Virus record (IMG/VR): IMGVR_UViG_3300025009_000378
Location: 1 to 22,578 of that record
Direction: 5' to 3' (one strand)
Length of the DNA stretch: 22,578 nt
From: a virus
This document shows, piece by piece, positions 9,819-14,909 of this stretch. The stretch's first letter is position 1. Each line of letters opens with the position of its first letter. The translations under genes and the position numbers were made by a program. A model generated the notes under the pieces. That model saw nothing but the letters and a program-made list of their open reading frames with translations, made no database searches and had not been told where the DNA came from.

Positions 9819-9983
9819 TCAGTCCTCGTCGAAAAATCCGAAGAACAATTCCCTGATTGTCTGTTTATCCTGTTTTATAATATGCCCGCAGCGGAGGCAC
9901 TTTCGGGCGACGTAATACCAGTTAAAATCGTACACCTCACCATATTTATGGCCGAAAACCTTACAGATCAACGCTCGTATCAT
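9819..9983 (-). CDS. Small prophage-type Cys/His protein (54 aa)
   Basis: This is the last gene of the leftward operon, starting in an ATGA overlap (9983-9980) with the XRE gene. The N-terminus MIRALICKVFGHKYGEV and the later ARKCLRCGHII give C7, H12, C29 and C32, a likely single zinc site. The KxFGHK...CxRCG pattern resembles small prophage proteins of the DUF1660 type; this is recognition by eye. It ends with an aromatic/acidic tail FFGFFDED. Function is unknown. Confidence 0.65.
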   Translation of the reverse strand: MIRALICKVFGHKYGEVYDFNWYYVARKCLRCGHIIKQDKQTIRELFFGFFDED

Positions 9984-10147
9984 TTCTGTACCATCTGTTT
10001 AATTATCACCAGGGCGGGTCCTCTGATCGGTCGCTGGCCCTGTTCCCATTTACGATATCCCGGCAGGCTCATACCGACCTTCTCGGCCATCTCCCTGCGG
10101 GTCAGGCCGAGGGCGGTACGGATCTGCGTTAGTTCGGCGGGGGTCAT
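9980..10147 (-). CDS. XRE/Cro-type helix-turn-helix regulator (55 aa)
   Basis: The product MTPAELTQIRTALGLTRREM continues AEKVGMSLPGYRKWEQGQRP and ends soon after with IKQMVQK. This is a minimal HTH_3 domain: helix 1 (AELTQIRTALG), helix 2 (TRREMAEKVG), recognition helix (SLPGYRKWEQG), then a closing helix. A GGAG Shine-Dalgarno is 8 bases upstream of ATG 10147. It overlaps both neighbours by ATGA. It probably represses a promoter in this control segment; a 13-bp palindrome in the promoter of its own operon (10571-10583) is a natural candidate site. Confidence 0.85.
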   Translation of the reverse strand: MTPAELTQIRTALGLTRREMAEKVGMSLPGYRKWEQGQRPIRGPALVIIKQMVQK

Positions 10148-10509
10148 ACCCGCGACTCCAGTTCGATAATTCTGGTACGGATCTCATCAATCTGCGGTTT
10201 CAACTTTTCCGAACGATTCTTTCCTATCGGACTACCCATTTCGGCGGCCGCGCATTCCTTCCAATATTTTTCATCTAAACGGCAGTAAGCTGCTTTCAAT
10301 ATTTCCAATTCGGTGATGGTCCTCGGCGTGAACGGAGCGGTAATCCGCTCGTAATATTCATTTGCCTGTTTTTCGTCTGGGAAAACGGCCGTGTACATAT
10401 CATAGAACGATGAATGAATTACCGAATTTTCCACCATGTTGGTCAGTTCTGGGGACCAGATTTTTCGGTATCCGTCCGGTTTTACCACTGTGATCACTGC
10501 GTATCCCAT
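10144..10509 (-). CDS. Hypothetical protein, first gene of the XRE operon (121 aa)
   Basis: I choose ATG 10509, preceded by AGGGGG with 5-base spacing, giving MGYAVITVVKPDGYRKIWSP. An upstream in-frame TTG at 10593 is unlikely as a start because that TTG is the first half of a -35 box (TTGACA) and lies directly at the end of a terminator. The C-terminal 50 residues are charged and helical (LKPQIDEIRTRIIELESRV), likely a coiled coil. No family is recognised. The stop overlaps the XRE start, so the two are probably co-expressed and may work as partners. Confidence 0.65.
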   Translation of the reverse strand: MGYAVITVVKPDGYRKIWSPELTNMVENSVIHSSFYDMYTAVFPDEKQANEYYERITAPFTPRTITELEILKAAYCRLDEKYWKECAAAEMGSPIGKNRSEKLKPQIDEIRTRIIELESRV

Positions 10510-10564
10510 AATATCCCCCTGTTCGATTTCACCCGTTATCGGGTCACTCACTCTTACGCTTCCT

Positions 10565-10593
10565 ACAATATACCCACTGGGTACACTTGTCAA
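10565..10593 (-). promoter_or_regulatory. Promoter with embedded palindromic operator for the XRE operon
   Basis: Reading leftward, TTGACA (10593-10588) is followed by TATATT after 15 bases or TATTGT after 17. Between them lies TACCCACTGGGTA (10571-10583 on the plus strand), a perfect 6-1-6 palindrome. A dimeric XRE repressor bound there would block the promoter, giving autoregulation. The match to the -10 consensus is partial. Confidence 0.5.
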
Positions 10594-10594
10594 T

Positions 10595-10635
10595 AAAAAA
10601 AACGACCGAGTGGAATTTATTTCCGTGCTCGGTCG
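10595..10635 (-). terminator. Intrinsic terminator of the zinc-ribbon repeat gene
   Basis: On the minus strand the arms CGACCGAG and CTCGGTCG, with an inner GGAA/TTCC pairing, form a stable hairpin. Eight U residues follow directly (A-run 10595-10602 on the plus strand). It lies 12 bases past the stop of the 403-residue gene and isolates it from the XRE operon. Confidence 0.85.
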
Positions 10636-10646
10636 CCTCTACACCC

Positions 10647-11858
10647 TCACCGTCCCTTCAAACACTCGATACACCCGCCCGTCGATACCCATCTGAACCC
10701 CCTGTGGCCTCGCTGACACGCGTCACCGGTCCGGTAGACCTTCAGGCCCAGCCGGCGGGCATCGTCGCGTGACACCACCATATCGGGGGCGGCTTCCATC
10801 ATTATGGAGGTTTCTCGATCTAACTGGGGTACGCAACCTTGACACTGACCATCACTTACCCGACGGTCGGCAATCATCCCGCAACGCGGGCATGGGTCTT
10901 TCGGCACATACCATTTCTTACCGGCACGTAACGCAGCTTGGCGGGGGCTCTCGGTATCACGATCAGTCATAGCGGGATAGCACCCATTGCATTTGTCGTC
11001 GTTCACCCGATGCCGGACTATCTTCCCGCATCGCGGGCATGGGTCTTCAGGGATGTACCATTTCTGCCCGAACGACCTGGCCAGTGCCCGCGGGACGTTT
11101 GTATCCAGTAATGGGGAACAAGCCGAACAACGATTATCGCTCACCCTGCGAAGGGCCATTTCACCGCATTTTCGGCACGGAGTCAAAGGGGTATACCAAA
11201 TCTTCCCATTGTTCCTTGCGTCGATTCTGGCAATATCGCTTACGTGCTTCCGCATTACCGGGAAACATCCCGTACAGCGGTTGTCACTCGTTCGCCGTTC
11301 CGCAGTGTGACCACAACGGGTGCAAGGTTGGCCCGGTGTATAATATTTCTCCCCTCTTTGCCGGGCAAGTATCCGTTCATCGGACTCTGATTCACAATAT
11401 GAGCATTTTCCGCTGATGGTGAGTACGCCGAAATGCCCGGACATCTCACAGGGGACAGGGACTAGATAGTGGGACAATCCAAGTCGGGACGCGTCGTATT
11501 CAGATTTTGCCAAAACACCGTTTTTCATAAACAGGCAATTTGGACTATCAACCATGGTATAAATATCTATCCATACCTGATCTGGGATCAAATGTTTCTT
11601 AACGGTTTTAACCATAGGACCGGGAATAACAAATACTCCTTCGTTCGTTCGTTCAAATTTAATCGCTCCTGCTGCGTAGCAAAACAGATCGTTGGCCCAA
11701 TCTTTTGAACAACGAACACAGATATCGGTTTTAGTGTAGTGGTCCTTCGTTCCGCAGATGGAACATTCCTCTCCTGTATAAATCTTGCTTCTTACTTTTC
11801 GTGCTTCCTGTCGCGAAAAAGGGAACGCCGACGAAGCACCGTTCTTGCCAAAGTACAT
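10647..11858 (-). CDS. Multi-unit zinc-ribbon repeat protein (403 aa)
   Basis: The start ATG 11858 has a strong AGGAGG 7 bases upstream. The protein is largely a tandem array of a unit of about 35 residues: A-R-x2-G-x2-W/Y-Y-x4-P-C-x2-C-G-x5-R-x-S-D-x2-C-x2-C. Four clear units have ligands C179/182/195/198, C228/231/244/247, C274/277/290/293 and C323/326/339/342, spaced about 46-49 residues. Diverged units occur at 17-50 (C32/35/47/50), 123-155 (C137, H142, C152, C155) and 367-399 (C381, H385, C396, C399). A 70-residue non-repeat segment (52-122) separates units 1 and 2. No catalytic domain is seen. Single units of this type occur in other phage proteins; a run of seven is unusual. A nucleic-acid or protein scaffold role is inference. 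Confidence 0.8.
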   Translation of the reverse strand: MYFGKNGASSAFPFSRQEARKVRSKIYTGEECSICGTKDHYTKTDICVRCSKDWANDLFCYAAGAIKFERTNEGVFVIPGPMVKTVKKHLIPDQVWIDIYTMVDSPNCLFMKNGVLAKSEYDASRLGLSHYLVPVPCEMSGHFGVLTISGKCSYCESESDERILARQRGEKYYTPGQPCTRCGHTAERRTSDNRCTGCFPVMRKHVSDIARIDARNNGKIWYTPLTPCRKCGEMALRRVSDNRCSACSPLLDTNVPRALARSFGQKWYIPEDPCPRCGKIVRHRVNDDKCNGCYPAMTDRDTESPRQAALRAGKKWYVPKDPCPRCGMIADRRVSDGQCQGCVPQLDRETSIMMEAAPDMVVSRDDARRLGLKVYRTGDACQRGHRGFRWVSTGGCIECLKGR

Positions 11859-11872
11859 TTTGCCTCCTTTCC

Positions 11873-11911
11873 ACCCCTAGCTCGGGGCCCATACCCCGCA
11901 GCTTCAGGGGT
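11873..11911 (-). promoter_or_regulatory. Long hairpin in the 5' leader of the zinc-ribbon repeat gene
   Basis: In the leftward transcript ACCCCT pairs with AGGGGT, AGCT with AGCT and CGGGG with CCCCG. That makes 15 base pairs with a two-base and a one-base bulge and loop UAUGGG. The hairpin ends 5 bases before the AGGAGG of the gene. The same C4/G4 blocks can form two shorter hairpins instead, so switching is possible. It has no U-tract, so it is not an ordinary terminator. Confidence 0.5.
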
Positions 11912-12032
11912 AAAATAAAAATAACTGTTTCAACTACTTAAACCTCAAAAATTGTTAGTACCTCAAAAATATGGTCGTTTTGCACCTTGTTGCTAGTTTT
12001 TTCGACAAAACAACTGTTTCTGGGTACCACCA

Positions 12033-12090
12033 ATTAATATTATCGTCCTATCATTAATATTAAATATCGTCAACATTAATTGTTATTAAT
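12033..12090. repeat. ATTAAT cluster, iteron-like
   Basis: ATTAATATTA occurs at 12033-12042 and again exactly 20 bases later at 12053-12062. ATTAAT recurs at 12075 and 12085, and ATCGTC follows the first two copies. The 20-22 base spacing puts the first three on the same DNA face. This suits an AT-rich unwinding element or a cooperative binding site. Confidence 0.5.
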
Positions 12091-12117
12091 ACCATATTTA
12101 CTTCTATTCTCTATTTC

Positions 12118-12146
12118 TTTAAAAGTAAAGGGTATTGGGGTATATA
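12118..12146 (+). promoter_or_regulatory. Candidate promoter for the packaging operon
   Basis: TTTAAA (12118-12123), a 17-base spacer and TATATA (12141-12146) each match 4 of 6 sigma70 positions. It is the best rightward candidate upstream of the terminase genes, though it would leave a leader of about 240 bases. Confidence 0.3.
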
Positions 12147-12181
12147 TATAGAAATAGATAAGAAGTACAGGGAGTTAGAGA

Positions 12182-12218
12182 TACACCGAAGGGTACACAC
12201 CGACCGTACACCGAAGGG
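12182..12218. repeat. Direct repeat TACACCGAAGGG
   Basis: TACACCGAAGGG occurs at 12182-12193 and 12207-12218 (25-base period), with a partial copy TACACACCGACC between them. It lies in the non-coding region upstream of the small terminase gene, where packaging-initiation sites are often found. Confidence 0.55.
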
Positions 12219-12294
12219 GTCAGTGATGGGGTATTGGACTGGGTGCCACACCGTGGTGGTTGGACGATGTGGACCGGCTGTCGAGGTGGTGGGA

Positions 12295-12327
12295 ATGTCC
12301 ACAGTCGGCGGCCGCAACTGTGGACAT
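12295..12327. promoter_or_regulatory. 33-bp inverted repeat upstream of terminase genes
   Basis: The perfect 11-base arms ATGTCCACAGT (12295-12305) and ACTGTGGACAT (12317-12327) flank an 11-base GC-rich centre that itself contains GCGGCCGC. It is followed by TGGTACGC repeated twelve bases apart (12327, 12339) and a T-rich run. Possible roles are a pac/cos-type recognition site, an operator, or a leader hairpin. Confidence 0.6.
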
Positions 12328-12394
12328 GGTACGCAAACTGGTACGCGAAAGGTTTTTTCTTTACAACTGCGAACAACTAATTTACCATTCAACC

Positions 12395-12961
12395 ATGAGC
12401 AAGATCGATCTTGAATCAATGGGTGTCGATGTTCGGGCCGGCATGTTGTCTCTCCGTGAGATTGGACGTAAACACGGTTGTTCGGAAACCTACGTCCGGA
12501 AAGTGATGAAGCGGGAGAAATGGCAACGTGATCTCTCCGACAAGGTTCGAGAACGTACCCGGATAAAACTTCTCCATCCTGACATAAAGCTCCCATCTGA
12601 GCAGGAAATAGTCGAACAGGCATCCGACGTCCGCGTAGCGGTGGTCAACCTGCAACGGGCCGATATACAGCGGCTACGGGCGTTAGAATTGAAATTACTG
12701 GCTGAACTCGGTGATCCCGATAATCCCCCGACAAAGGTCCATATCTCGTCGTTCCAGGGCCGCGTGACTCAAACCGTCCTTGGTATCACCGTCACCGAAC
12801 GGGCGTCGGCACTCGGCCAGTTGGCGTTCGTACAGTCCAAACGGATCGCCCTCGAACGCCAGGCCTACAGCCTGAACGATACCCCCACCACCGACCCCTA
12901 CGCCGACCTGTCCCGGGATGAGATCGAGCGGCGCCTGGTTGAACTGGAGAAACGACGATGA
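12395..12961 (+). CDS. terS: Terminase small subunit (188 aa)
   Basis: From ATG 12395 the protein starts MSKIDLESMGVDVRAGMLSL and has an N-terminal helix-turn-helix (LREIGRKHGCSETYVRKVMK, about 20-39) followed by W-x-RDLSDKVR, a frequent plan in phage small terminases that recognise the packaging site. The middle is a long helical region (RADIQRLRALELKLLAELG) suited to ring oligomerisation. The C-terminus is charged (SRDEIERRLVELEKRR) and may contact the large subunit. The frame opens earlier with TTG 12260, but that extension covers the inverted repeat and reads poorly. It overlaps the HAD gene by ATGA, and the large terminase follows. No strong Shine-Dalgarno is seen. Confidence 0.8.
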   Translation: MSKIDLESMGVDVRAGMLSLREIGRKHGCSETYVRKVMKREKWQRDLSDKVRERTRIKLLHPDIKLPSEQEIVEQASDVRVAVVNLQRADIQRLRALELKLLAELGDPDNPPTKVHISSFQGRVTQTVLGITVTERASALGQLAFVQSKRIALERQAYSLNDTPTTDPYADLSRDEIERRLVELEKRR

Positions 12962-13320
12962 ACGATACACACGGTTGTACTGGTAAAGGTTGGATTGGTG
13001 TTGATCTGGATGGGACACTGGCCGAATATCACGGGTGGAAAGGTCCGGAACATATCGGGTCGCCTGTTCCATTGATGGTTGAACGGGTGAAACGTTGGAT
13101 CACCGAAGGTCGTCGGGTACGGATTATGACGGCCCGTGTCGCCCCCGGAAAACCTGATTCGGGATTATGCCGGGAGGTAATAAACACGTGGTGTGTTACC
13201 CATCTCGGCCGGCCCCTACCGATTACGCACGAAAAGGACCACATGATGGTTGAACTCTGGGATGATCGGTGTGTTCAAGTCATCCCGAATACCGGCGTTC
13301 GTGCCGACGGCCGCCCGTGA
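12958..13320 (+). CDS. HAD-like phosphatase (120 aa)
   Basis: The signature WIGVDLDGTLAEYHGW (12-27) carries the nucleophile D16 and acid/base D18 of the haloacid dehalogenase superfamily. Motif II is probably T58 in RIMTARVA. The late DHMMVELWDDRCVQV block supplies the acidic metal ligands. At 120 residues it is a minimal, cap-poor HAD, as in many phage-encoded nucleotidase or polynucleotide-phosphatase-like proteins; its substrate is unknown. It is placed between the small and large terminase genes, overlapping the first by ATGA and the second by GTGA. Confidence 0.8.
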   Translation: MNDTHGCTGKGWIGVDLDGTLAEYHGWKGPEHIGSPVPLMVERVKRWITEGRRVRIMTARVAPGKPDSGLCREVINTWCVTHLGRPLPITHEKDHMMVELWDDRCVQVIPNTGVRADGRP

Positions 13321-14909
13321 CCTGGACCGACGCCGAAGCCCGCGAATACCTCGCCCTGCGCGAACGGTTGATCGCCATGGACCGGGCCGGTGTCGATTAT
13401 CGCCGGTATTCGAACGACTGTGAGGGATTTATCGAGCACGTCCTGGGCGAGCACCTGACGGACGATCTGCGGGAGATCTGCCGGTCGGTGGTGGAAAATT
13501 CGGTGACGATCGCCCAGTCGGGTAACGGTACGGGTAAATCGTTCATCGAATCGCGAATCGCCGTGTGGTTTTACAAGTGTCAGATCGAACCGCAAATTTA
13601 CTGCGCGGCCGCCCCGCCGCAGACGAACCTGGAGAACATCCTGTGGGCCGAGATATCTGCCACCGCCGATAAACACGCGCATCTGTTCGTTGGTTCATCC
13701 CTCAAAAACCTGAAAATTTCCCGTTCTCCGCTCGAATTCATCACCGGTGTGGCCATACCCTCGTCCGGTACCGATGCACAGCGTCAGGCGCGGTTCAGCG
13801 GCAAACATGCCCCGAGTCTGCTGTTCCTGCTCGATGAGGGTGACGCGATCCCGGACCCGGTATTCGCCGGCATTGAAACGTGTCTGTCCGGTGGGTTCAG
13901 TCGTTTGTTGATCACGTTCAACCCCCGGGAACGCCGCGGCCACGTGTACCGGACGATCAAGACCGGCCAGGCGAACGTCATCAAACTCACAGCTCTGAAC
14001 CACCCGAACGTTGTCACCGGTACCGATGTTATCCCTGGCGCAGTTGACCGGGAAAAAACCCTGCGCCGTATCGCACAGTGGACTCGGCCGCTCGGTCCGG
14101 GGGAACAGCGGGATAAAACGTGTTTCGATTTGCCGGAATATCTCGTCGGCTGCATACCGACCGACCAGCAACGGCGACCGCTGGCACCGTTGGCACCGGG
14201 GACGTATAAAATCGTCGAACATCAGTTCTCCCACGTCGTCCTCGGCGAATACCCGGCCCAGGCTGATAACCAGTTGATCAGCGAGGAGTGGATCGATAAG
14301 GCCCGTTCACGTTACGACCTGTTCGTTGCGGCCCACGGGGTCATCGTGCCGGAAACGATTCGCTGCACCGGTGGGCTCGATATCGCCGATCAGGGCCGTG
14401 ATTCGTCCGTTTGGTGTAAACGATTCGGGAATTTCGTTCATCCGCTCGTCAGTTGGCAGAAGCAAGACGTTATCGAAGTGGGCGATTTGGTCCAGGCTGA
14501 TCTGATCGTCCAGGGGATCACTTCACTGACGGCAATATATTGCGACGGTACGGGCGTCGGCGCCGGCACTGCGCCGTACATGGTCAAGCAGTACGCCCTG
14601 CCGGCCGTTAAGGTCATGGTTGCTTCGGCCGCCACGGATAAGACGGACCTGGGCGAATTCGGTATCCTGCTGGATCAATTGATGTGGGAGGTCCGCGAAT
14701 GGTTGCGTAATGATCTGGCTATGCTGCCGCCCGACCCGGAACTCATCGAGGAATTACTGGCGTTTAATTACGAGGTGAAGCTGGGTAAGGTTAAGGTGAG
14801 CAGTACGGACGAGGTGAAAACGTTACTCGGCCGGTCACCGGATCGTGCCCGGGCGTTGATGCTGTCGTTTATGAAGAGTGGATGGTTTTCTGAGATGGAT
14901 CTGAGTTAG
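13317..14909 (+). CDS. terL: Terminase large subunit (530 aa)
   Basis: The start is GTG 13317, in a GTGA overlap with the HAD stop; the frame is open to 13269 but that lies within the HAD gene. The ATPase domain shows Walker A SGNGTGKS (68-75) and Walker B LLFLLDE (D173-E174), with an ITFNP coupling motif after it. The C-terminal RNase H-like nuclease begins at GGLDIADQGRDSSVW, and a second acidic strand is AIYCDGTGVGAG. The protein cuts the concatemer and pumps DNA into the prohead through the portal. All expected motifs are intact. Confidence 0.93.
   Translation: MTWTDAEAREYLALRERLIAMDRAGVDYRRYSNDCEGFIEHVLGEHLTDDLREICRSVVENSVTIAQSGNGTGKSFIESRIAVWFYKCQIEPQIYCAAAPPQTNLENILWAEISATADKHAHLFVGSSLKNLKISRSPLEFITGVAIPSSGTDAQRQARFSGKHAPSLLFLLDEGDAIPDPVFAGIETCLSGGFSRLLITFNPRERRGHVYRTIKTGQANVIKLTALNHPNVVTGTDVIPGAVDREKTLRRIAQWTRPLGPGEQRDKTCFDLPEYLVGCIPTDQQRRPLAPLAPGTYKIVEHQFSHVVLGEYPAQADNQLISEEWIDKARSRYDLFVAAHGVIVPETIRCTGGLDIADQGRDSSVWCKRFGNFVHPLVSWQKQDVIEVGDLVQADLIVQGITSLTAIYCDGTGVGAGTAPYMVKQYALPAVKVMVASAATDKTDLGEFGILLDQLMWEVREWLRNDLAMLPPDPELIEELLAFNYEVKLGKVKVSSTDEVKTLLGRSPDRARALMLSFMKSGWFSEMDLS

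Follow-up and report, generated by a model that had tools for sequence, protein, structure and literature searches.

The stretch of viral DNA analysed here (the window, 22,578 nucleotides) encodes a 403-residue protein made up of seven zinc-ribbon-like units. Comparison across phages suggests that this array protein, which the phage itself encodes, controls late operons by binding DNA in a sequence-specific manner and reads repeated words in the gap next to its own gene; we assign this reading a probability of roughly 0.47. More specifically, the array product would bind repeated TACCCCG-type words in the gap shared with the late operon, and this binding would regulate the late (terminase and structural) operon as well as the array's own gene. 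The neck and tail operon of phage KpV52 and its relatives would come under this control too, through a duplicate of the region. Each unit would consist of a short helix and a zinc-bound hairpin, with the number of middle units varying among phages. Many phages have no known late regulator, and their late control is unexplained; if the array is the switch, one family would explain it in dozens of Klebsiella phages and their relatives. Such a system would also offer a ready protein/word pair and a natural modular zinc DNA-reader from bacterial viruses.

Architecture of the array protein

The array gene starts with an ATG at 11858, which is preceded by a good to strong Shine-Dalgarno sequence, AAAGGAGG. 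The open reading frame and its units, with bit scores from a leave-out unit model and predicted metal ligands, are as follows.

10647..11858, minus strand: array open reading frame, 403 aa (open reading frame call and unit models)
11709..11825, minus strand: unit 1, diverged (C-x2-C ... C-x2-C), residues 12-50, 15.6 bits, ligands C32 C35 C47 C50
11394..11513, minus strand: unit 2 (C-x4-H ... C-x2-C), residues 122-155, 20.9 bits, ligands C137 H142 C152 C155
11265..11387, minus strand: unit 3, residues 159-198, 45.6 bits, ligands C179 C182 C195 C198
11118..11237, minus strand: unit 4, residues 209-247, 44.2 bits, ligands C228 C231 C244 C247
10980..11105, minus strand: unit 5, residues 253-293, 37.1 bits, ligands C274 C277 C290 C293
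10833..10958, minus strand: unit 6, residues 302-342, 59.7 bits, ligands C323 C326 C339 C342
10662..10784, minus strand: unit 7 (C-x3-H ... C-x2-C), residues 360-399, 46.7 bits, ligands C381 H385 C396 C399

The leave-out model was built from 10 units of other phages only, with none from the 403-residue protein. It recovers all seven units at 15.6-59.7 bits, compared with 4.8 bits for the best domain in 200 shuffles of the protein, and thus bears out the preliminary description, which had read seven such units from the letters alone. The 'C..GH' forms noted there are also confirmed and correspond to units 2 and 7; the unit 7 form is seen as well in phage proteins annotated as HNH or endonuclease VII. 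A full profile of 17 units (the seven from this protein and ten from five other phages), in which the query's own units are included, scores the seven at 47.7-70.6 bits. Across units 3 to 6 the spacing from first Cys to first Cys is 49, 46 and 49 residues, and a linker of ~65-70 residues, modelled partly as helix and strand, separates units 1 and 2. The ligand places hold 26 of the 28 cysteines, with C60 and C108 alone falling outside the units; because two histidines (units 2 and 7) join these 26, every unit has four predicted metal ligands and may bind zinc.

The whole array was modelled with AlphaFold2 using an alignment with 13 relatives, giving a mean pLDDT of 82.4 and a pTM of 0.43. According to this model, the array may resemble beads on a string, with most units formed by a short helix followed by two short strands. 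Unit 6 modelled singly (mean pLDDT 88) likewise has a helix and short strands. Fold comparison against the PDB at E <= 0.001 gave no match for the whole model or for unit 6 alone. In VIA the best match of the whole model reached Z 2.1, with none for unit 6 at Z >= 2, and a profile search for solved relatives returned nothing significant (best E 0.099). From the absent PDB match one can conclude neither that the fold is new nor that there is none.

Stand-alone arrays and their relatives

Pfam and NCBIfam searches with the array protein, and Pfam searches with all 17 units, gave nothing above cut-off. A single-protein IMG/VR scan with the 403-residue protein (P0001) returned only two contigs, both from the window's own phage, as did a scan with a two-row alignment (A2), and scans with the array proteins of SppYZU01 and B2 found no relatives. 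Relatives were gathered by running a degenerate DNA pattern of the CxxC unit against IMG/VR; the pattern favours the CxxC form with W-Y, so that forms without W-Y are under-sampled. It yielded 30 loci, 29 of them with units (including L047 and L049, which are the window's own phage); L027 carries the pattern without a unit match. Furthermore, tblastn with the array protein matched 86 phage records, 65 of which are Klebsiella. Some of the best 50 of these 86 match via an HNH protein, and among the matches listed the alignment covers most of the array length in one, SppYZU01.

A stand-alone array had initially seemed unusual. The 29 IMG/VR loci, the 86 tblastn records and several PHROGs speak against this. 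The PHROGs that share the units (29682, 20468, 1081, 15231, 11472, 23777 and 30250) are catalogued without function. Nor were long arrays found to be already described with a known function, as had been considered: the searched databases give the family none, and among the open-access journal papers listed, no title or abstract opening describes it. Stand-alone arrays thus appear, at the level of sequence, to be a widespread and undescribed family.

Many of the 29 loci share a common architecture, consisting of an N-terminal unit, a linker, a GH unit, a variable number of CxxC units and a C-terminal GH unit, and the 403-residue protein has it as well (alignment A3, with 13 relatives). Exceptions in this alignment are L033 and L046, which are without N-terminal and C-terminal GH units, and L043, which ends in a CxxC unit. 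There is one CxxC unit in SppYZU01, L028, L037 and L050, two in L026 and L038, three in L034, four in the window's protein and five in L052, which is without the C-terminal GH unit. In Klebsiella jedunaviruses, KpV52 among them (gp75), the array takes a short form: a single clear CxxC unit plus a degenerate GH unit.

Single units had also been described as attached to other phage proteins, and this holds. One or two N-terminal units are present in proteins of PS-1 (gp48), KsaM-C1 and Vibrio 455E52-1 annotated as HNH or endonuclease VII, in which an HNH-like stretch was seen by eye; these proteins share the array's unit but add a nuclease-like part that is missing from the arrays. In Bas95, PTXU04 and Vibrio phages 1.251.O and 1.103.O, units are joined to other C-terminal parts, which in the two Vibrio phages means two units followed by a helix-turn-helix-like part (by eye); Pfam found no family in the 1.251.O protein.

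The array could also be what is left of a mobile HNH or endonuclease VII gene after loss of its nuclease part, with the grip on DNA retained. The annotated nucleases with the same units would fit such a descent, as would an open reading frame in contig G005 (L064; L031:2000-2944) that has two units and an HNH-like end by eye, and lies ~4.6 kb from the array. This frame measures ~315 aa, and contig G012 (L071) likewise has a second unit-bearing open reading frame of this size near its array. One of the 17 units touches phrog_1035 endonuclease VII, and phrog_2255 'HNH endonuclease' matches unit 1 at E 0.036 only. Pfam and NCBIfam gave no HNH or endonuclease match in the array protein; Pfam was also blank on PS-1 gp48, and the scan can therefore miss nuclease domains. 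Remnants should decay, whereas stand-alone arrays keep their own architecture across diverse phages together with a fixed place, and we regard such a descent as decidedly improbable.

Position of the array gene at the start of the late operon

The features surrounding the array gene in the window are listed below.

9819-10593, minus strand: second leftward operon (149-aa unknown, 55-aa HTH and 54-aa Cys-containing protein)
10595-10635, minus strand: intrinsic terminator of the array gene (fold z -3.26, matched by 1 of 200 shuffles)
11859..12394, no strand: array-TerS gap, 536 bp, presumed two-way control region
11873-11911, minus strand: leader hairpin just 5' of the ribosome-binding site (z -2.69, matched by 1 of 200 shuffles)
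12395..12961, plus strand: terminase small subunit (TerS), head-to-head with the array gene (phrog_1206, E 2e-28)
13269..14909, plus strand: terminase large subunit (phrog_2)

The TerS open reading frame extends from 12260, and the ATG at 12395 was taken as its start. Both the own terminator and the structured leader first proposed for the array gene withstand the shuffle test; the consensus terminator scan missed 10595-10635 because its loop exceeds the length that the scan allows. The leader hairpin contains one TACCC and one GGGTA. Transcription of the array gene alone, as also proposed, is plausible, but the second leftward operon begins ~50 bp past the stop, directly beyond the terminator and with its own promoter-like sequence (TTGACA-17-TATTGT).

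Two smaller observations concern this locus. The promoter-like sequence of the second operon contains TACCCAGTGGGTA (10571-10583), one of two TACCC-N0..8-GGGTA pairs within the 56-kb contig of the window's phage, and the operon may be under the same control as the array gap. A perfect 10-bp inverted repeat, TGTCCACAGT-N11-ACTGTGGACA, is located at 12296-12326, ~70 bp 5' of the presumed TerS start.

Among the 29 loci, the neighbour could be scored in 25, since L036, L041, L042 and L054 stop short of it. In each of these, a late operon starts opposite the array gene or opposite the small operon that ends with it. The 25 loci do not amount to 25 independent events, because several are close kin and two (L047 and L049) come from the phage of the window itself. 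The facing gene is TerS in 19 loci (phrog_51, 1206 or 309) and a minor tail protein (phrog_4688) in six, with a terminase gene next in all three of the latter that reach one (L035, L037, L040). Individual loci vary in detail: TerS lies behind a 113-aa open reading frame of no known family in L034 and across ~825 bp in L028, the facing gene of L043 is only a weak TerS match, the array is the last gene of the small operon in L026 and L050, and the neighbour of L052 was taken from its contig G015 (L073). Among named phages, TerS faces the array in B2, KpV52 (across the record ends), KsaM-C1 and AAM22, and a minor tail protein does so in SppYZU01. The gap usually measures ~290-620 bp. Arrays that carry a different C-terminal part (Bas95, PTXU04, Vibrio 1.251.O and 1.103.O) sit elsewhere.

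Repeated words in the gap

An unsupervised ranking of 6-mers, with no motif fixed beforehand, compared 22 gaps with dinucleotide shuffles; L029, L030 and L053, which are close to other loci, were left out of this pool, and the gaps of L026 and L050 were misplaced in it. The top 6-mer was ACCCCG (42 vs 5.0 expected, in 16 of 22 gaps), followed by TACCCC (55 vs 11.5 expected, in 19 of 22). For larger pools, split by the gene facing the array and with corrected gaps, L039 was also left out, and the non-redundant pools were further reduced by AAM22 (96% like L048) and by L046, L050 and L040 (60-72% like a kept gap). Twelve phrog_51-type gaps contain 33 ACCCCG (2.9 expected) and 39 TACCCC (5.7 expected), and seven gaps with other first genes contain 9 (2.6 expected) and 18 (4.9 expected), counts reached in none of 200 shuffles. 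The corrected gaps of L026 and L050 have 4 and 5 TACCC, and the gap used for L028 measures 824 bp.

Some phages have their own form of the word, namely TAACCCAG in L040 and ACCCCAAGTAC in B2, where the core ACCCCAAGTA occurs four times in the genome, always within the gap. In KpV52 the words are found in the gap and one other region, and the other eight intergenic stretches of at least 90 bp have at most 2 TACCC. In 5 of 11 genomes (G005, G009, G010, G013, G015), the gap is among the two densest word windows genome-wide. In KpV52 the neck copy described below leads, and the gap, split by the record ends, ties for second place. The gap is tied lower in G012, and lies outside the top four in G007, SppYZU01 and B2, the last of which has its own word.

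In the window, too, a gap with words separates the array gene from the late operon opposite, and here the word enrichment is moderate. The gap contains 7 TACCC/GGGTA (2.25 expected, 0 of 100 shuffles), including 4 TACCCC, and 1 ACCCCG. In the 56-kb contig of this phage (G001), the gap merely ties with other windows, so that the link between array and words rests largely on relatives. General repeat density was rejected as evidence, the gap being unexceptional in most genomes; in the window, its density is equalled by 24 of 559 windows. The notion that more units read more words was also rejected, as unit number and word number correlate negatively (Spearman -0.49, n = 20, confounded by kinship). 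A code of one unit to one word is therefore not supported.

Among the roles raised at the outset, the reading of a repeated nucleic-acid site is favoured by this comparative evidence, and no support was found for a scaffold or for host mimicry. Zinc ribbons often bind RNA or proteins, and the array might act on RNA or on a host protein as scaffold, anti-defence factor or mimic. Such a role leaves both the fixed gene position and the co-varying DNA words unexplained, the lack of a PDB fold match shows little in this respect, and we consider it improbable.

Phages in which the array is absent or replaced

Five phages with a related TerS served as controls; they were called array-less from 3.9-6.4 kb of fetched sequence without a unit match and from tblastn organism counts. 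Within 450 bp before TerS they have 0, 0, 0, 1 and 0 TACCC, and no ACCCCG. The words thus appear to follow the array rather than TerS. TerS itself is disfavoured as the word reader, given that related TerS without arrays are all but without words.

Four phages with a similar layout and another gene at the gap (R9Y1, CP-T1, CKB-S1 and PY6) have 6 TACCC, compared with 6.3 expected. In Alteromonas phage R9Y1, an HTH_17 gene takes the position of the array, and one 424-bp divergent gap next to it (L087 28821-29244) carries nine TGTAACG (0 of 100 shuffles). CKB-S1, which also has an HTH_17 gene there, has five GTGCCCC (2 of 100 shuffles), and PY6 has five GTGCCCC in its gap (0 of 100 shuffles), beside a primase-like gene annotated as integrase. 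CP-T1 showed no significant repeat by the shuffle test. In Acinetobacter phage Scuro, another zinc-ribbon-like protein (CPEHG...GCVLC, by eye; L086 13314-14093) occupies the array's place, and the phage keeps five TACCC (2.16 expected, 1 of 100 shuffles) as well as a primase of the window's type. A TetR-like protein (PF00440) beside the window's primase was considered as word reader and is disfavoured: it has a relative in R9Y1, CP-T1, CKB-S1 and PY6, all of which are without TACCC excess.

On the favoured reading, the words would be read by the array and not by some other protein, and the effect would be on transcription. A broader and tentative reading is that many tailed phages have a fixed slot between early and late genes that takes interchangeable DNA-binders (zinc arrays, HTH_17 proteins and others), each with its own repeated word, the commonest reader here being a modular zinc array that gains and loses units. 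Such an array would parallel, in bacterial viruses, the tandem zinc-finger transcription factors known from animals. TGTAACG with the HTH_17 gene of R9Y1 is an independent candidate protein/word pair.

A duplicated, presumed control region and the layout of predicted late promoters

In KpV52, ~290 bp of the gap region are repeated nearly unchanged before the neck gene gp25. The element occurs at 160 places across 71 phage records, a count that includes duplicate accessions of a single phage. Contigs G009 and G010 likewise have a second word cluster before their neck homologue, and in G013 such a cluster lies at the 5' end of that gene. Duplication before the neck gene argues for shared control of two structural operons.

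Proximity to TerS could alternatively mean that the array acts in DNA packaging, binding a cos or pac region and helping the terminase. Array genes do lie beside TerS, and so does PS-1 gp48, the unit-bearing protein annotated as endonuclease VII. However, the duplication of the KpV52 region away from TerS, and its spread over so many places, argue against a packaging site as its sole role. The minor tail protein that faces the array in six loci and SppYZU01, and the related TerS that lack both arrays and words, count against it as well, and we judge packaging very improbable.

An extended -10 precedes the late gene in 12 of 26 regions, compared with 4.8 expected. In 10 of these 12, the last word ends 14, 14, 15, 25, 25, 25, 26, 26, 26 or 27 bp before the extended -10, two spacing classes (14-15 and 25-27 bp) that differ by one helical turn; in the remaining two the last word is 44 and 89 bp away. 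We judge that about four lineages stand behind the ten spaced regions. No extended -10 was found before TerS in the window. Activation of late promoters is slightly preferred as the sign of control: several phages place a word at, or immediately 5' of, the -35 region of an extended -10 promoter.

As a separate observation, KpV52 gp24 (L056 13346-13984) adjoins the second control region. It has a winged-helix-like TrmB match (E 2.4e-05, below the Pfam cut-off) and ends with a C-x2-GH ... C-x2-C stretch, and is possibly a second reader.

The same words could instead be replication-origin iterons read by the primase-helicase, with the array as an accessory origin factor or a mere neighbour. In KpV52 an AT-rich core lies between the words. 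A relative of the window's primase (phrog_1829) is present in 14 of 30 fetched loci, whose flanks are limited, and also in KpV52, SppYZU01, B2 and AAM22, and Scuro retains words and primase without the array. Where the gap has other repeats, R9Y1 and CKB-S1 have an annotated primase gene in the operon beside it and PY6 has its primase-like gene adjacent, and none of the three has an open reading frame detectably related to the primase of the window or of KpV52. Two copies of the region per genome recall ori and crr of phage P4, whose alpha protein reads its origin. Since the primase travels with the array, the data do not cleanly separate the regulatory reading from an origin. On the other side, KpV52, G009, G010 and G013 all have the second copy at one and the same structural gene, the neck gene, as would be expected of a promoter region, and the words keep a recurrent spacing to the extended -10. 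In a weak test, the OLIVR4 primase is 34% identical to that of Scuro, and 46 kb of that phage have no TACCC cluster (at most 4 per 400 bp). We consider the origin explanation unlikely.

Comparison with known late and middle regulators

At T4 middle promoters, which have an extended -10, MotA is bound near -30 and stands in for the -35 contact. The likeness to the proposed regulator would lie in promoter layout, and MotA is not a zinc protein.

A second comparison is offered by phages P2 and P4. P4 Delta consists of two domains in tandem. According to published reports, P2 Ogr and P4 Delta (PF04606) are phage-encoded late-gene activators, Ogr has a zinc-finger motif, and the Ogr-type late promoter regions of phage phiRSY1 are without a sigma-70-type promoter (PMC5694545, PMC8628076). 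PF04606 is not among the Pfam matches of the array at E up to 10, a range in which HMMER filters drop most weak matches. In contrast to Ogr and Delta, the array has another zinc motif, another DNA word and 2-7 units instead of 1-2, and its gene is divergent and placed beside the late operon. On the simplest account, the array would be a DNA-binding late-operon regulator placed next to its own target, resembling P2 Ogr in task, not in family.
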